Source: Bacteroidota bacterium (GTDB lineage: Bacteria; Bacteroidota; Bacteroidia; 2-12-FULL-35-15). Taken from it: a stretch of DNA of 64,000 nucleotides. The DNA lies in the NCBI GenBank assembly GCA_947504725.1, contig CANNHN010000007.1:62001-126000 (forward strand), read 5' to 3'. The notes under the pieces were generated by a model, which had not been told where the DNA came from, made no database searches, and worked only from the letters and a program-made list of their open reading frames with translations. Positions 33,196-40,993 of this stretch are shown one piece after another (the stretch's first letter is position 1; the number at the start of each line of letters is the position of its first letter). Position numbers and translations under genes: made by a program.

Positions 33196-33675
33196 ATGGC
33201 TCAAAATTATCAACTTGATAAACTGGATAAGCAAATTCTTTCAATGCTCATGAAGGATGCGACCATTCCTTATACTGAAATCGCAAAAGAATTGGTTATT
33301 TCTGCAGGAACGATTCATGTAAGGATGAAAAAATTAATTGACATGGGAGTTGTACTAGGCTCGCATTTTGAGATTAATCCTTCTAAAGTTGGATTTGATG
33401 TCTGTGCTTTTTTGGGCATTTTTTTAGAGAAGGGCTCTGAATACAATGATGCAGTTATACGTTTGAAAAAGGTTCCTGAGGTTGTTGAGCTGCATTATAC
33501 TACTGGAGTATATAGCATGTTTGCGAAAATAGTATGCAGGGATACGCTACATTTGAGAGAAGTGTTAAATGAGCACATTCAAACCATTAAAGGAGTACAA
33601 CGTACAGAAACCTTTATTTCCCTAGAAGAGAGCATAAAACGGCAGGTAGAGATAAAGGATAAACGGCTTCGTTAA
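33196..33675 (+). CDS. Lrp/AsnC family transcriptional regulator
   Basis: LDKLDKQILSMLMKDATIPYTEIAKELVISAGTIHVRMKKL HTH plus RAM domain. Confidence 0.93.
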   Translation: MAQNYQLDKLDKQILSMLMKDATIPYTEIAKELVISAGTIHVRMKKLIDMGVVLGSHFEINPSKVGFDVCAFLGIFLEKGSEYNDAVIRLKKVPEVVELHYTTGVYSMFAKIVCRDTLHLREVLNEHIQTIKGVQRTETFISLEESIKRQVEIKDKRLR

Positions 33676-33694: not shown

Positions 33695-33727
33695 TTTGGA
33701 TGCTAATAAATTTCTGCATTATCTTTG
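33695..33727 (+). promoter_or_regulatory. Promoter of the aromatic operon: TTTG-N21-TATCTTTG
   Basis: TTTG 33695-33698 and TATCTTTG 33720-33727, Bacteroidetes -33/-7 consensus with expected spacing. Confidence 0.65.
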
Positions 33728-33745
33728 TCACAGATTAAAAACAAA

Positions 33746-33826
33746 ATGACACTACATAATTTATATTTCTTCTTTCCTTTTTATCCGGGTTCTTATACGG
33801 GACACCGCTGGGGAAGTAGTATGTAA
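33746..33826 (+). CDS. Aromatic amino acid leader peptide MTLHNLYFFFPFYPGSYTGHRWGSSM
   Basis: 26 codons, 4 Phe + 3 Tyr + 1 Trp; between promoter and attenuator, 5' of pheA. Confidence 0.85.
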   Translation: MTLHNLYFFFPFYPGSYTGHRWGSSM

Positions 33827-33850
33827 ATTTTAAAACATAGTAATTACTTA

Positions 33851-33888
33851 AAGGCGAGTCCCGATTATATCGGGACTCGCCTTTTTTT
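33851..33888 (+). terminator. Attenuator terminator upstream of pheA
   Basis: AAGGCGAGTCCCGA-TTATA-TCGGGACTCGCCTT, perfect 14-bp stem, continuing T tract. Confidence 0.93.
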
Positions 33889-33916
33889 ATTCAATAACAA
33901 TTTAAACTTAAACAAC

Positions 33917-34747
33917 ATGCGCAATTTTAAAGTAGCAATTTTCGGAACAGTAGCTTCGTACCACGATTTAGCGGCACAGAAATTTTATGGACAAGAAGTA
34001 GATATTATTGAGTGCTTTACTTTTCGCCAATGTTGTGAAATATTAAAAAGGAATGATGCCGACTATGCAGTTATGGCAATTGAAAATTCTTTAGCTGGAA
34101 GCATACTTTCTAATTATAATTTGATTGAAGAATATAAACTTCGGATTATCGGAGAACAATATTTAAAAATTGAATTGAATCTTTTGTCATTGGAAGGAGT
34201 GAAAATGGAAGAGATAGAATATATTCATTCTCACCCTATGGCTCTTGCGCAATGTTCTGCTTTTTTGCTGAAATATCCTCATGTGAAAATTGTTGAACAA
34301 GGCGATACTGCTTCTTGTGTAAAAAATATTCGAGAAAAGAATTTAAGGAACACTGCTGCTATTGCAAATGAATTGTCATCTGTGGTTTATAATGTTCCTA
34401 TTCTGTTTTCAAACATTGAAAATAATACACAGAATTTTACCCGATTCATCATCCTATCTAAAGGCGATTCAAAACCGGAAAGTCCAAACAAAGCTTCAGT
34501 GTGTTTTCGCTTAAAACACGAAGTAGGTTCATTAGCGGATGTTTTAAGTGTTCTGAAAAAGAATGGCGTGACACTTTCTAAAATTCAAAGCGTGCCAGTT
34601 TTTGGGCAACCTCAAGAGTATTCTTTTCATACAGATTTGGAATGGAATGAATATTCTGGGTTTCAAAAAGCTATTAAAAAAATAAAAAATTCCACAAGTT
34701 CTCTTTCTGTTTTGGGAGAATATTTAAAAGCAACAATAAATAATTAA
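33917..34747 (+). CDS. pheA: Prephenate dehydratase
   Basis: AIENSLAGSI; NTQNFTRFIIL; ACT domain KHEVGSLADVLSVLKKNGVTLSKIQS. Confidence 0.94.
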   Translation: MRNFKVAIFGTVASYHDLAAQKFYGQEVDIIECFTFRQCCEILKRNDADYAVMAIENSLAGSILSNYNLIEEYKLRIIGEQYLKIELNLLSLEGVKMEEIEYIHSHPMALAQCSAFLLKYPHVKIVEQGDTASCVKNIREKNLRNTAAIANELSSVVYNVPILFSNIENNTQNFTRFIILSKGDSKPESPNKASVCFRLKHEVGSLADVLSVLKKNGVTLSKIQSVPVFGQPQEYSFHTDLEWNEYSGFQKAIKKIKNSTSSLSVLGEYLKATINN

Positions 34748-34751
34748 AACG

Positions 34752-35837
34752 ATGAAAAAACTACTAGATATAACACCAGTTTGTAATTGGTTGGAGGGTG
34801 CAAAACGACCATTGATGATAGCTGGTCCGTGCAGTGCAGAATCAGAAATTCAAATGCTTACTACAGCAAAAGCGATATCAGCTATTGATGATAAAATTAT
34901 TTTCAGAGCTGGAATTTGGAAGCCAAGAACGCGTCCGAATGCCTTTGAAGGAGTTGGAAGTATAGGATTGCAATGGATGAAAAAAGTGAAAGAGGAAACA
35001 GGAATGTTAACGGCTACTGAAGTTGCAAATACATCTCATGTGGAAGAATGCTTAAAAGCGGGAATTGATATTTTATGGATTGGCGCCCGTACCACAGTTA
35101 ATCCATTTTCTGTTCAAGAAATTGCAAATGCTTTGAAGGGAACTGATATTCCAGTTTTTGTAAAAAATCCTGTTAATCCAGATTTGCAATTATGGATTGG
35201 TGCTTTAGAAAGAATTAATCAAGCTGGAATAACTAAAATAGCAGCGATTCATCGTGGTTTTCATTCTCATTCGGTAACTCCTTTTCGAAATGATCCAAAA
35301 TGGGAAATGGCGATTGAATTGCGAACACTTTGCCCCGAGTTGCCAATTATTTGTGATCCAAGTCATATTTGCGGAAACACAGATTTAATTCCTTACATTT
35401 CTCAAAAGGCTTTGGATATGGATATGCATGGGTTAATGATTGAAACGCATTGTATGCCTTCCATTGCTTTGAGTGATGCTAAACAGCAATTGACTCCAGG
35501 TCAATTGTCTTCTTTGATTGAAAAATTAGTTGTTAGAAAATCAAATTCTGAAAATATTGAGTTCAAATCAAAATTGGAGGAGTTGCGAGAATCAATAAAT
35601 AAAACAGATGATGAATTGTTGCAAATTTTAATGAATAGAATGTTAGTGGCAGAAAAGATTGGCGCCTATAAAAAAGAAAACAAAGTCACTATTTTACAAA
35701 CCAATCGATGGGAGAGCTTATTGAATGAACGCCTAAATAATGCTTCTATGATGGGTTTGAGTGAAAGCTTCGTCCGTTCATTGTATGTGTTGATTCACGA
35801 AGAATCGATACGTAAACAAACTGAAATAATGAATTAA
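34752..35837 (+). CDS. Bifunctional DAHP synthase (KDOPS-like type)/chorismate mutase type II
   Basis: MIAGPCSAESEIQ; FRAGIWKPRTRPNAFEGVG; C-terminal CM LRESINKTDDELLQILMNRMLVAEKIGAYKKE. Confidence 0.94.
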   Translation: MKKLLDITPVCNWLEGAKRPLMIAGPCSAESEIQMLTTAKAISAIDDKIIFRAGIWKPRTRPNAFEGVGSIGLQWMKKVKEETGMLTATEVANTSHVEECLKAGIDILWIGARTTVNPFSVQEIANALKGTDIPVFVKNPVNPDLQLWIGALERINQAGITKIAAIHRGFHSHSVTPFRNDPKWEMAIELRTLCPELPIICDPSHICGNTDLIPYISQKALDMDMHGLMIETHCMPSIALSDAKQQLTPGQLSSLIEKLVVRKSNSENIEFKSKLEELRESINKTDDELLQILMNRMLVAEKIGAYKKENKVTILQTNRWESLLNERLNNASMMGLSESFVRSLYVLIHEESIRKQTEIMN

Positions 35838-35847
35838 TACTAAAAGT

Positions 35848-36645
35848 ATGAAAATTACAATTGTAGGTTGTGGTAATATGGGCTTAATTTATGCTCGTGC
35901 CTTTTTGAAGTATAAAATCGTTTCCAAAGAAAATTTATTATTAGCTGAAAAAAATGAATCTAGGAAACAAGAATTGCTAAAACTAAATATTGGAGAAGTA
36001 TGTGTAGTCAACGATTCACGAATTTCTGCAAGTGATATTGTTATTTTAGCAGTAAAGCCACAGGATTTTAATGAATTGAGTGTTGAGTTAAAACAAGTGC
36101 TCAATAACAATATCATTATTTCTATTATGGCTGGTATGAAATTGGAACGAATTGAAAAAGCTTTGGATCAACGTTTCATTGTTAGGGCAATGCCTAATTC
36201 CCCAGCAGAATTGGGAATGGGAATGACAGCTTTTACAAGTAATAAATCTTTGTCGATTGAGCAAATCCGGAAAGCTGAAAATTTATTGTCTACAACCGGT
36301 AGGACTGTTTTCTTTGAAAATGAAAATTTAATTGATGCCGTTACTGCATTGAGTGGAAGTGGTCCTGCTTATTTTTTCTATTTAGTAAAACATATGGTTG
36401 AGGCAGGAATAAAAATGGGATTTGATCAGCACACTTCGGAAATTTTAGTGAAGCAAACCATGTTAGGTTCTTTTCATTTGCTAAATACAGCAGATAAATC
36501 ATTGGATGAATTAATAAAAGCGGTTGCATCCAAAGGAGGAACAACGGAAGCTGCTCTCAACGTTTTTAATGAAACAGGTGTAGGAGAAAATTTGCAAAAA
36601 GGAATTGTGAAAGCTAGAGATAGAGCAAGTGAGTTGTCGAAATGA
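35848..36645 (+). CDS. proC: Pyrroline-5-carboxylate reductase
   Basis: IVGCGNMGLIYARAF; VRAMPNSPAELGMGMTAF; ALSGSGPAYFFY. Confidence 0.94.
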   Translation: MKITIVGCGNMGLIYARAFLKYKIVSKENLLLAEKNESRKQELLKLNIGEVCVVNDSRISASDIVILAVKPQDFNELSVELKQVLNNNIIISIMAGMKLERIEKALDQRFIVRAMPNSPAELGMGMTAFTSNKSLSIEQIRKAENLLSTTGRTVFFENENLIDAVTALSGSGPAYFFYLVKHMVEAGIKMGFDQHTSEILVKQTMLGSFHLLNTADKSLDELIKAVASKGGTTEAALNVFNETGVGENLQKGIVKARDRASELSK

Positions 36646-38644: not shown

Positions 38645-40993
38645 ATGTCGCGTATTACATCCATAGAAGACTATCATAAAGAATACAAAAGAAGTATAGA
38701 AAATCCAGAAGCTTTTTGGGGAGAGCAAGCTGAAGAGTTTGTTTGGCAAAAAAAATGGGACAAAGTGTTGGACTGGAATTTTAATACAGCTGAAACTAAG
38801 TGGTTTGTAGGCGGAAAATTAAACATTACTGAAAATTGTTTGGATAGACATTTACCCGCAAGAGCAAATCAAATAGCATATTATTGGGAACCGAATGAGC
38901 CGAATGAAAAAGCAGTTAAACTTACCTATAAAGAATTACACGAACAAGTTTGTAAATTTTCCAATGTTTTAAAAAAAAACGGAGCAAAAAAAGGAGATCG
39001 TATTTGTATTTATATGCCGATGGTTCCGGAATTAGCAATTGCGGTGTTGGCATGTGCAAGAATTGGTGCTGTGCATTCGGTTGTATTTGGTGGATTTTCT
39101 GCTTCTGCGTTATCTGGTAGAATTCAAGATTGTGATTGTAATATTGTTATTACAAGTGATGGCGCTTATCGAGGAGCAAAAGCAATTCCAATGAAAGAAG
39201 TGGTTAATGAAGCGTTGGAAATTTGTCCTTCTGTGAACAAAGTAATTGTACTAGAACGAACAAACACTGCAATTAAAATGTTAGCTGGTCGTGATGTTTT
39301 TTGGAAAGAAGAAATGAAATCGGCATCTTCGGTATGTGATGCAGAACAAATGGATTCTGAAGACATGTTGTTCATTTTATATACATCTGGATCAACTGGA
39401 AAACCAAAAGGAGTTGTGCATACGTGTGGTGGATATATGGTATATACTGATTATACTTTTAAAAATGTTTTTCAGTATAATAACGACCCATCCCTAACCC
39501 TTCCCAAAGGGAAGGGAGATGCTCCGGGATATTATACCACTGATCCAAATACATTTAAACTTCTAACTGAGTATGCTAAAGAGATGCGAGATAATCCAAC
39601 TTCTGCAGAAAATATGTTGTGGCAATCTTTGCGAACACACAAGGCGGGTTATCATATAAGAAGGCAACATATTATTGGAAAATTTATAGTTGATTTTGTT
39701 TGTTTAGAAAAAAAATTAGTGATAGAAGTGGATGGTGATATACACGATCATCAATTAGAAGAAGATGCTCAGCGCACAGCATTTTTAAAGGAAGAAGGAT
39801 TTGAAGTTGTTCGTTTCAGAAATGAAGAAATATACGATGATGTACATTTCATAAGTTTAAGAATCGAGAATATTTTGGGCAAGAGACAGAGTGTTACAGA
39901 CGGAGAAAATCCCCTTCCCTTTGGGGAGGGCCAGGGTGGGGACGAGGTTTATTGGTGTACAGCAGACATCGGATGGATTACAGGCCATTCTTATATAGTA
40001 TATGCTCCGCTTTTAGCAGGTGCTACTTCTGTGCTGTTTGAAGGAGTTCCCACTTATCCAGATGCAGGAAGATTTTGGCAAATAATTGATAAATATAAAG
40101 TCAATATTTTTTATACGGCTCCAACAGCAATCAGAGCATTGGAAGCAGCTGGGTTGGATTTTGTTAAACCCTATAAATTAGAATCATTGCGAGTGCTTGG
40201 AAGTGTTGGAGAACCAATCAATGAGGAAGCATGGAATTGGTACAACGAAAATATTGGAAAATGTAAATGTCCAATTGTTGATACTTGGTGGCAAACTGAA
40301 ACCGGAGGAATTTTAATTTCACCTCTTGCAGGGATTACGAAGACAAAACCAAGCTTCGCGACTTTGCCATTGCCTGGTGTTCAACCAATTTTAGTTGATG
40401 ATAAAGGAAATGAAATTCTAGGAAATGGAGTGGAAGGAAATTTATGTATTAAATTTCCATGGCCATCAATTATCCGAACTACGTATGGTGATCATGAACG
40501 TTGTAAACAAACTTATTTTTCAACTTATCCAGGATTGTATTTTACTGGTGATGGTTGTAAGCGCGATGAAGATGGTTATTATAGAATTACGGGTAGAGTA
40601 GATGATGTAATGAATGTGAGTGGACATCGCATAGGAACAGCGGAAGTTGAAAGTGCTATTAATATGCATATAGATATCGTAGAATCTGCAGTAGTTGGTT
40701 ATCCTCACGATATAAAAGGACAAGGTATTTATGCGTATGTGATTTGCACTAATAAAAATAAAGATGCAGATACTTTGCGAAAGGAAATTTTAGCGGAAGT
40801 GACAAAAGTGATTGGTCCAATTGCAAAACCTGACAAAATTCAAATAGTGAGTGGTTTGCCCAAAACCCGAAGCGGTAAAATTATGAGAAGAATATTAAGG
40901 AAAGTTGCTGAGGGGGATATGTCAAATTTAGGAGATATTTCTACGCTGCTTGACCCCGCAGTTGTTGATGAAATAAAGGCTGGAGCTATCTAA
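38645..40993 (+). CDS. acs: Acetyl-CoA synthetase interrupted in frame by a DUF559-encoding element
   Basis: LYTSGSTGKPKGVVHT, YWCTADIGWITGHSYIVYAPL, VSGHRIGTAEVESA, KTRSGKIMRRILR; removing the insert leaves ~629 aa, a normal Acs length. Confidence 0.95.
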   Translation: MSRITSIEDYHKEYKRSIENPEAFWGEQAEEFVWQKKWDKVLDWNFNTAETKWFVGGKLNITENCLDRHLPARANQIAYYWEPNEPNEKAVKLTYKELHEQVCKFSNVLKKNGAKKGDRICIYMPMVPELAIAVLACARIGAVHSVVFGGFSASALSGRIQDCDCNIVITSDGAYRGAKAIPMKEVVNEALEICPSVNKVIVLERTNTAIKMLAGRDVFWKEEMKSASSVCDAEQMDSEDMLFILYTSGSTGKPKGVVHTCGGYMVYTDYTFKNVFQYNNDPSLTLPKGKGDAPGYYTTDPNTFKLLTEYAKEMRDNPTSAENMLWQSLRTHKAGYHIRRQHIIGKFIVDFVCLEKKLVIEVDGDIHDHQLEEDAQRTAFLKEEGFEVVRFRNEEIYDDVHFISLRIENILGKRQSVTDGENPLPFGEGQGGDEVYWCTADIGWITGHSYIVYAPLLAGATSVLFEGVPTYPDAGRFWQIIDKYKVNIFYTAPTAIRALEAAGLDFVKPYKLESLRVLGSVGEPINEEAWNWYNENIGKCKCPIVDTWWQTETGGILISPLAGITKTKPSFATLPLPGVQPILVDDKGNEILGNGVEGNLCIKFPWPSIIRTTYGDHERCKQTYFSTYPGLYFTGDGCKRDEDGYYRITGRVDDVMNVSGHRIGTAEVESAINMHIDIVESAVVGYPHDIKGQGIYAYVICTNKNKDADTLRKEILAEVTKVIGPIAKPDKIQIVSGLPKTRSGKIMRRILRKVAEGDMSNLGDISTLLDPAVVDEIKAGAI
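39487..39941. mobile_element. In-frame ~455-bp palindrome-ended element encoding a DUF559 (Vsr-like) nuclease domain
   Basis: TIRs 39487-39517 and 39911-39941; flanking ACGA at 39483-39486 and 39942-39945; encodes EYAKEMRDNPTSAENMLWQSLRTHKAGYHIRRQHIIGKFIVDFVCLEKKLVIEVDGDIHD...FEVVRFRNEEI. Confidence 0.85.

Follow-up and report, generated by a model that had tools for sequence, protein, structure and literature searches.

The region preceding pheA in the genome of a Bacteroidota bacterium (GCA_947504725.1) most probably carries a ribosome-mediated transcription attenuator, which would control the pheA-DAHPS/CM-proC genes by sensing charged tRNA-Phe and tRNA-Tyr; judging from the sequence comparisons described below, we estimate the probability of this reading at about 93%. 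The region belongs to a stretch of 64,000 nt (contig CANNHN010000007.1, positions 62,001-126,000 of the forward strand), hereafter called the window, within which its features are numbered; all of them lie on the plus strand.

Organization and predicted folding of the pheA leader

The first structural gene, pheA (33917-34747), encodes a prephenate dehydratase (PDT; Pfam PF00800, E 1.6e-52) and is followed by a gene for a DAHP synthase-chorismate mutase fusion (DAHPS/CM, 34752-35837; DAHP_synth_1 and CM_2, PF00793 and PF01817) and by proC, coding for pyrroline-5-carboxylate reductase (P5CR, 35848-36645; PF14748/PF03807). Since the gaps before the second and third genes amount to only 4 and 10 nt, respectively, the three genes probably constitute one operon. 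The DAHPS/CM gene is next after pheA in relatives too, and proC is the third gene in L003-L007 and L017 as well (L numbers are locus labels). Further downstream in the window (38645-40993), an acetyl-CoA-synthetase-like ORF of 782 aa was seen by eye to hold an in-frame DUF559-type endonuclease-like stretch, ENMLWQSLRTHKAGYHIRRQHIIGKFIVDFVCLEKKLVIEVDGDIHD, which may be a repeat or mobile element that has inserted there.

Direct reading of the sequence upstream of pheA revealed a promoter-like motif of the Bacteroidota type, TTTG-N21-TATCTTTG (33695-33727), with TTTG at 33695-33698 and TATCTTTG at 33720-33727, exactly where a preliminary description of this DNA had located it; all six near relatives share TATCTTTG and, of the -33 element, the TTG. 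A scan with the sigma-70 consensus was set aside, being a poor fit to a Bacteroidota-type promoter such as that at 33695-33727. The motif is followed by the 26-codon Phe/Tyr-rich ORF reported in the same description, MTLHNLYFFFPFYPGSYTGHRWGSSM (33746-33826, from the ATG at 33746 to the end of the TAA), which includes the control codons Tyr-Phe-Phe-Phe-Pro-Phe-Tyr (YFFFPFY) at 33764-33784 and an additional Tyr codon at 33794-33796. The residues thus presumably sensed match the operon, whose DAHPS/CM feeds both Phe and Tyr.

Terminator scanning and folding placed an intrinsic terminator at 33850-33884, kept in near relatives and consisting of a stem of 16 uninterrupted pairs, a 3-nt loop (TAT) and a T run; the scan found this one terminator vs 0.4 expected per shuffle. 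The stem had been described as a perfect one of 14 bp with a T tract: its perfection and the tract stand, whereas its length is 16 bp. When the query was matched against the organism's own genome, the second hit at the DNA level was the terminator palindrome itself on the opposite strand. The 5' arm of the terminator is at the same time the 3' strand of the proposed antiterminator, whose segments lie exactly where described: the 5' strand at 33798-33808, composed of CGGGAC (33798-33803) and CGC (33806-33808), pairs with 33854-33863, i.e., with GTCCCG (33858-33863) and GCG (33854-33856). Together with a middle helix, AAGUAGUAUGU / ACAUAGUAAUUACUU (33814-33849), which is seen in the fold only and is less conserved in relatives, this pairing forms the minimum free energy (MFE) structure, about -21 kcal/mol, once the terminator 3' arm is omitted. 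Taken alone, the window sequence forms an antiterminator no better than shuffles do (z = -0.6); the argument for this fold is therefore a comparative one, based on swapping arms across families (next section).

Folding of the leader RNA, which the preliminary description had proposed as a check, was run on 33735-33895 and gave -48.4 kcal/mol (z = -6.7, largely from the terminator). Besides the terminator, the full-length MFE structure contains a protector helix of the 1:2 type (33758-33829), which the earlier description did not have: in it, 33758-33778 is paired to 33810-33829 around a small hairpin holding the antiterminator strand, so that the Phe codons are covered and this strand is kept tied up. 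When a ribosome was simulated by masking the leader up to 33796 (stall), 33797-33866 folded as the antiterminator (-21.3 kcal/mol), and with the mask extended to 33838 (ribosome at the stop) the remainder folded as the terminator (-28.7 kcal/mol).

These elements are the ones by which an attenuator is recognized: a short upstream ORF with clustered codons for the end product of the operon, an intrinsic terminator between this ORF and the first structural gene, an antiterminator that excludes the terminator and is conserved by covariation, a protector (1:2) helix in the window MFE and, as far as spacing tells, an antiterminator strand that is free at the stall and covered at the stop. The mechanism of trpL/pheL attenuation, being established, can serve as a model for how the leader would be translated and where its transcript would start, for how ribosomes would stall and how efficiently the terminator would act, and for how the operon would respond when Phe or Tyr runs short. 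Transcription would start just after TATCTTTG, and a ribosome would enter the leader ORF; Shine-Dalgarno sequences are rarely used in Bacteroidota. A shortage of Phe-tRNA or Tyr-tRNA would stall the ribosome in YFFFPFY, where it would disrupt the protector helix and leave 33798-33808 free to pair with the emerging terminator 5' arm, in which case no terminator would form and transcription would read through into pheA. When both tRNAs are plentiful, the ribosome would reach the stop codon (33824-33826) and cover the antiterminator strand, and the terminator would then end transcription before pheA. A leader without a ribosome would form the protector helix, with termination expected too. Of the two structures the terminator is finally the more stable, which is true of other attenuators as well; the decision would therefore have to fall while the RNA is still being transcribed.

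Conservation of the leader among pheA loci

Equivalents of the leader ORF were detected in L003-L007, L014, L017 and about 80 more pheA loci. In five near-relative loci with pheA genes 76-80% identical, the promoter motif, the Phe/Tyr run (FFF(P)FY, the Phe run itself being present in all near relatives), the antiterminator strand with its pairing and the terminator are all kept; a lack of conservation of the peptide or of the alternative pairing in relatives was what the preliminary description had named beforehand as grounds for refutation, and the outcome favours its reading. The leader stays with pheA despite a differing upstream gene, which is lrp in L003, L004 and L006, and argH in L005, L007 and L017. 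Two loci of the same genus (L015 and L016), where pheA has no neighbouring DAHPS/CM match, showed no leader. As a separate observation, a pheA match at the sensitivity used was obtained in only 10 of 36 same-genus genomes, two of which (G024 and G029) have clearly divergent copies.

The near relatives also bear on the question of whether the product of the short ORF is a small protein with a function of its own, besides or instead of sensing. The N-terminal half of the peptide is similar among them, as such a protein would be. In L003, L004 and L006, however, a deletion of 1 nt just after the Phe/Tyr run puts the remaining peptide in another frame, SIRDTAGRVVCK replacing SYTGHRWGSSM, and Phe/Tyr richness is all that the peptides have in common across the class, which makes a small protein very unlikely. 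As the frame shifts while the RNA is almost unchanged, the deletion suggests that selection acts on the RNA and the control codons rather than on the peptide's C-terminal half.

For a class-wide comparison, the upstream regions of 118 pheA loci with 21 family labels (those of the search tool) were analyzed with a detector that required an ORF starting with ATG, 8-48 codons long, with a stretch dense in Phe/Tyr/Trp and an end near a terminator. At a density of 4 in 10 codons, 89 of the 118 loci were positive, as compared with 4 of 590 dinucleotide shuffles and 3 of 118 reverse complements; at 5 or more in 10 codons the respective values were 89/118, 0/590 and 1/118, and a first version of the detector, with alternative starts allowed, had given 90/118. 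The leaders, exemplified by MTTFATYFFFFFYYFYFSNEVKREVVCARYVR and MKRFNTYFWFYYYFFKALPGFERVAVCC, consist of Phe and Tyr by 35%, and 47 out of 90 have TANNTTTG no more than 60 nt upstream of the ATG (120 of 1800 shuffles, or 6.7%). Of the 118 loci, 28 gave no leader with this detector, at least two of them (L034 and L037) visibly possessing one. Upstream of pheA in L036, two Phe/Tyr attenuators, MNTTTKYFFFNYFYFKQ and MMQNNYFLFYYFHFCHQRE, stand in tandem, each with its own terminator.

This frequency should be set against an alternative in which the short ORF arose by chance and the hairpin serves only to end transcription of the upstream gene. The upstream gene in the window is lrp (an Lrp/AsnC regulator by Pfam), which lies on the same strand and ends at 33675, and the hairpin is indeed the first terminator after it. 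Yet the promoter-like motif is situated between lrp and the hairpin, the leader persists where argH takes the place of lrp, and Phe/Tyr-dense ORFs are found at most pheA loci and in under 1% of the shuffles; this explanation thus appears extremely improbable.

Specificity of the antiterminator was evaluated by pairing the leader strand of each of 90 leaders with its own terminator arm, which yielded -13.7 kcal/mol on average as against -8.9 when the arms were swapped between families. When each of the 21 family labels contributed a single locus, the only way in which relatedness within families was handled, self pairing scored better than every one of the 2000 permutations, and did so in all 10 draws. 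The terminator/antiterminator covariation that the preliminary description had wished to see examined is thereby borne out, most of the pheA loci sampled from the class retaining the pairing with sequences that differ. The antiterminator strand starts 6-15 nt past the last control codon in 96% of cases (median 10) vs 22% in shuffles, and the leader stop is near this strand in all leaders; a spacing of 6-15 nt agrees with how far a stalled ribosome extends downstream. Pairing of the protector type is in excess class-wide (mean z -2.4), with p<=0.05 in 64% of the leaders rather than in every one. Taken together, the comparisons establish, at the level of sequence, the conservation, covariation, alternative pairings and spacing of the leader elements.

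Alternative pairings in a structured 5' leader would also be expected of an aptamer-type riboswitch, a T-box or a protein-bound leader sensing Phe, the ORF then being incidental. No Rfam family matched the leader at gathering score, the weak sub-threshold matches being to unrelated families, and what the class has in common is its Phe/Tyr codons, spacing and pairing rather than any RNA sequence or fold, so that sensing of this kind seems exceedingly unlikely. The constant spacing of 10 nt offers a rule for finding further leaders of the present kind, which annotation misses because ORF callers pass over such short frames and Rfam does not contain them.

Leaders at other operons of the genome

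A scan of 1.28 Mb of the organism's own genome, the window included, revealed no other Phe/Tyr/Trp-dense ORF accompanied by a terminator and a close-spaced antiterminator. The scan did yield further leaders built in the same way. A His leader, MKMTTMLYIHHHHTCSKGKQRVYCVF (MKMTTMLYIHHHHTC..), with a terminator precedes hisG (L186:1140-1290), and a Trp leader, MKNQLLNNMWWWSYSLRTA, with a terminator precedes trpE (L147:18814-18935). On the minus strand at L190:3480-3710, tandem attenuator-like units, MKTQNLYIVVIIQTL and MKNTILLVVIIIHSPG, carry Ile/Val runs (YIVVII and LLVVIII) and stand before an ilvE-like gene, identified by eye only, upstream of ilvD.

The tandem arrangement is, along with leaders rich in both Met and Cys, the less expected part of our findings. 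The latter, MNNNFTYTLTTSNSPMMCCMMCA and ..TMCMCCMMYLRMRK.., likewise occur as tandem attenuator-like units (L183:10970-11400; C2 of the same genome, about 367.4-367.8 kb), with the runs MMCCMMC and MCMCCMM and close-spaced antiterminators, followed by a run of genes for sulfite reductase, siroheme, PAPS reductase and homoserine dehydrogenase. Similar Met/Cys leaders, often paired, were found before the same gene of the sulfite-reductase operon in 17 of 30 loci and in none of 300 shuffles. Mixed leaders of this composition had no earlier description in the literature searched; polycysteine attenuators have reportedly been described in mycobacteria (work attributed to Canestrari, 2020). Considering these observations, it seems likely that Bacteroidia use leader-peptide attenuation generally for amino-acid and sulfur assimilation operons, with Phe and Tyr sensed at pheA in most lineages, tandems at pheA (L036) and ilvE/ilvD, and mixed Met/Cys leaders before sulfite reductase.

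Relation to known attenuators

The mechanism as such is already textbook, a label which the preliminary description had fairly applied; according to the present comparison, it is widespread at pheA across a bacterial group for which accounts of it are few. The pheA leader also furnishes a concrete case for translation-transcription coupling as a means of controlling amino-acid synthesis in Bacteroidota. Within the literature searched, leader-peptide attenuation is sparsely documented in this phylum: little was found beyond two studies (PMC9723704, PMC7366714), and Bacteroidetes are not mentioned by Naville and Gautheret (2010). The map of B. thetaiotaomicron mentions in passing short ORFs that resemble leaders (PMC7366714). 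The main text of the Flavobacterium psychrophilum transcriptome study reports that pheA and hisG are preceded by structured 5' elements and that there are strong clues for leader-peptide attenuation upstream of amino-acid operons, the pheA element recurring in other Flavobacteriaceae without an Rfam hit (PMC9723704). This element resembles the window leader in belonging to the same phylum and the same gene; that main text gives neither a peptide nor a pairing for it (PMC9723704).

With the attenuators of the trpL/hisL type in Proteobacteria, the window leader shares its logic and the 1:2 / 2:3 / 3:4 architecture, and it differs from them in lineage and sequence. Comparative work on such attenuators is said to have been done by Vitreschak (2004) and Lopatovskaya (2010), and the survey of the latter may already cover Bacteroidetes.

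Among the closest counterparts are the enterobacterial pheL-pheA and pheM-pheST systems, in which a leader with a Phe run is combined with a competing antiterminator and an intrinsic terminator. The likeness to them, drawn already in the preliminary description, holds for the mechanism but not for membership, as the Rfam covariance model Phe_leader gave no match at gathering score and none was listed at E<=5. In contrast to the enterobacterial leaders, that of the window mixes Tyr with Phe codons and is unrelated in sequence, its promoter is of the Bacteroidota type, and its operon adds DAHPS/CM and proC. In common with them it has a short leader containing several Phe codons in a row and an antiterminator opposed to an intrinsic terminator, and its target, pheA, is the same as in pheL-pheA.
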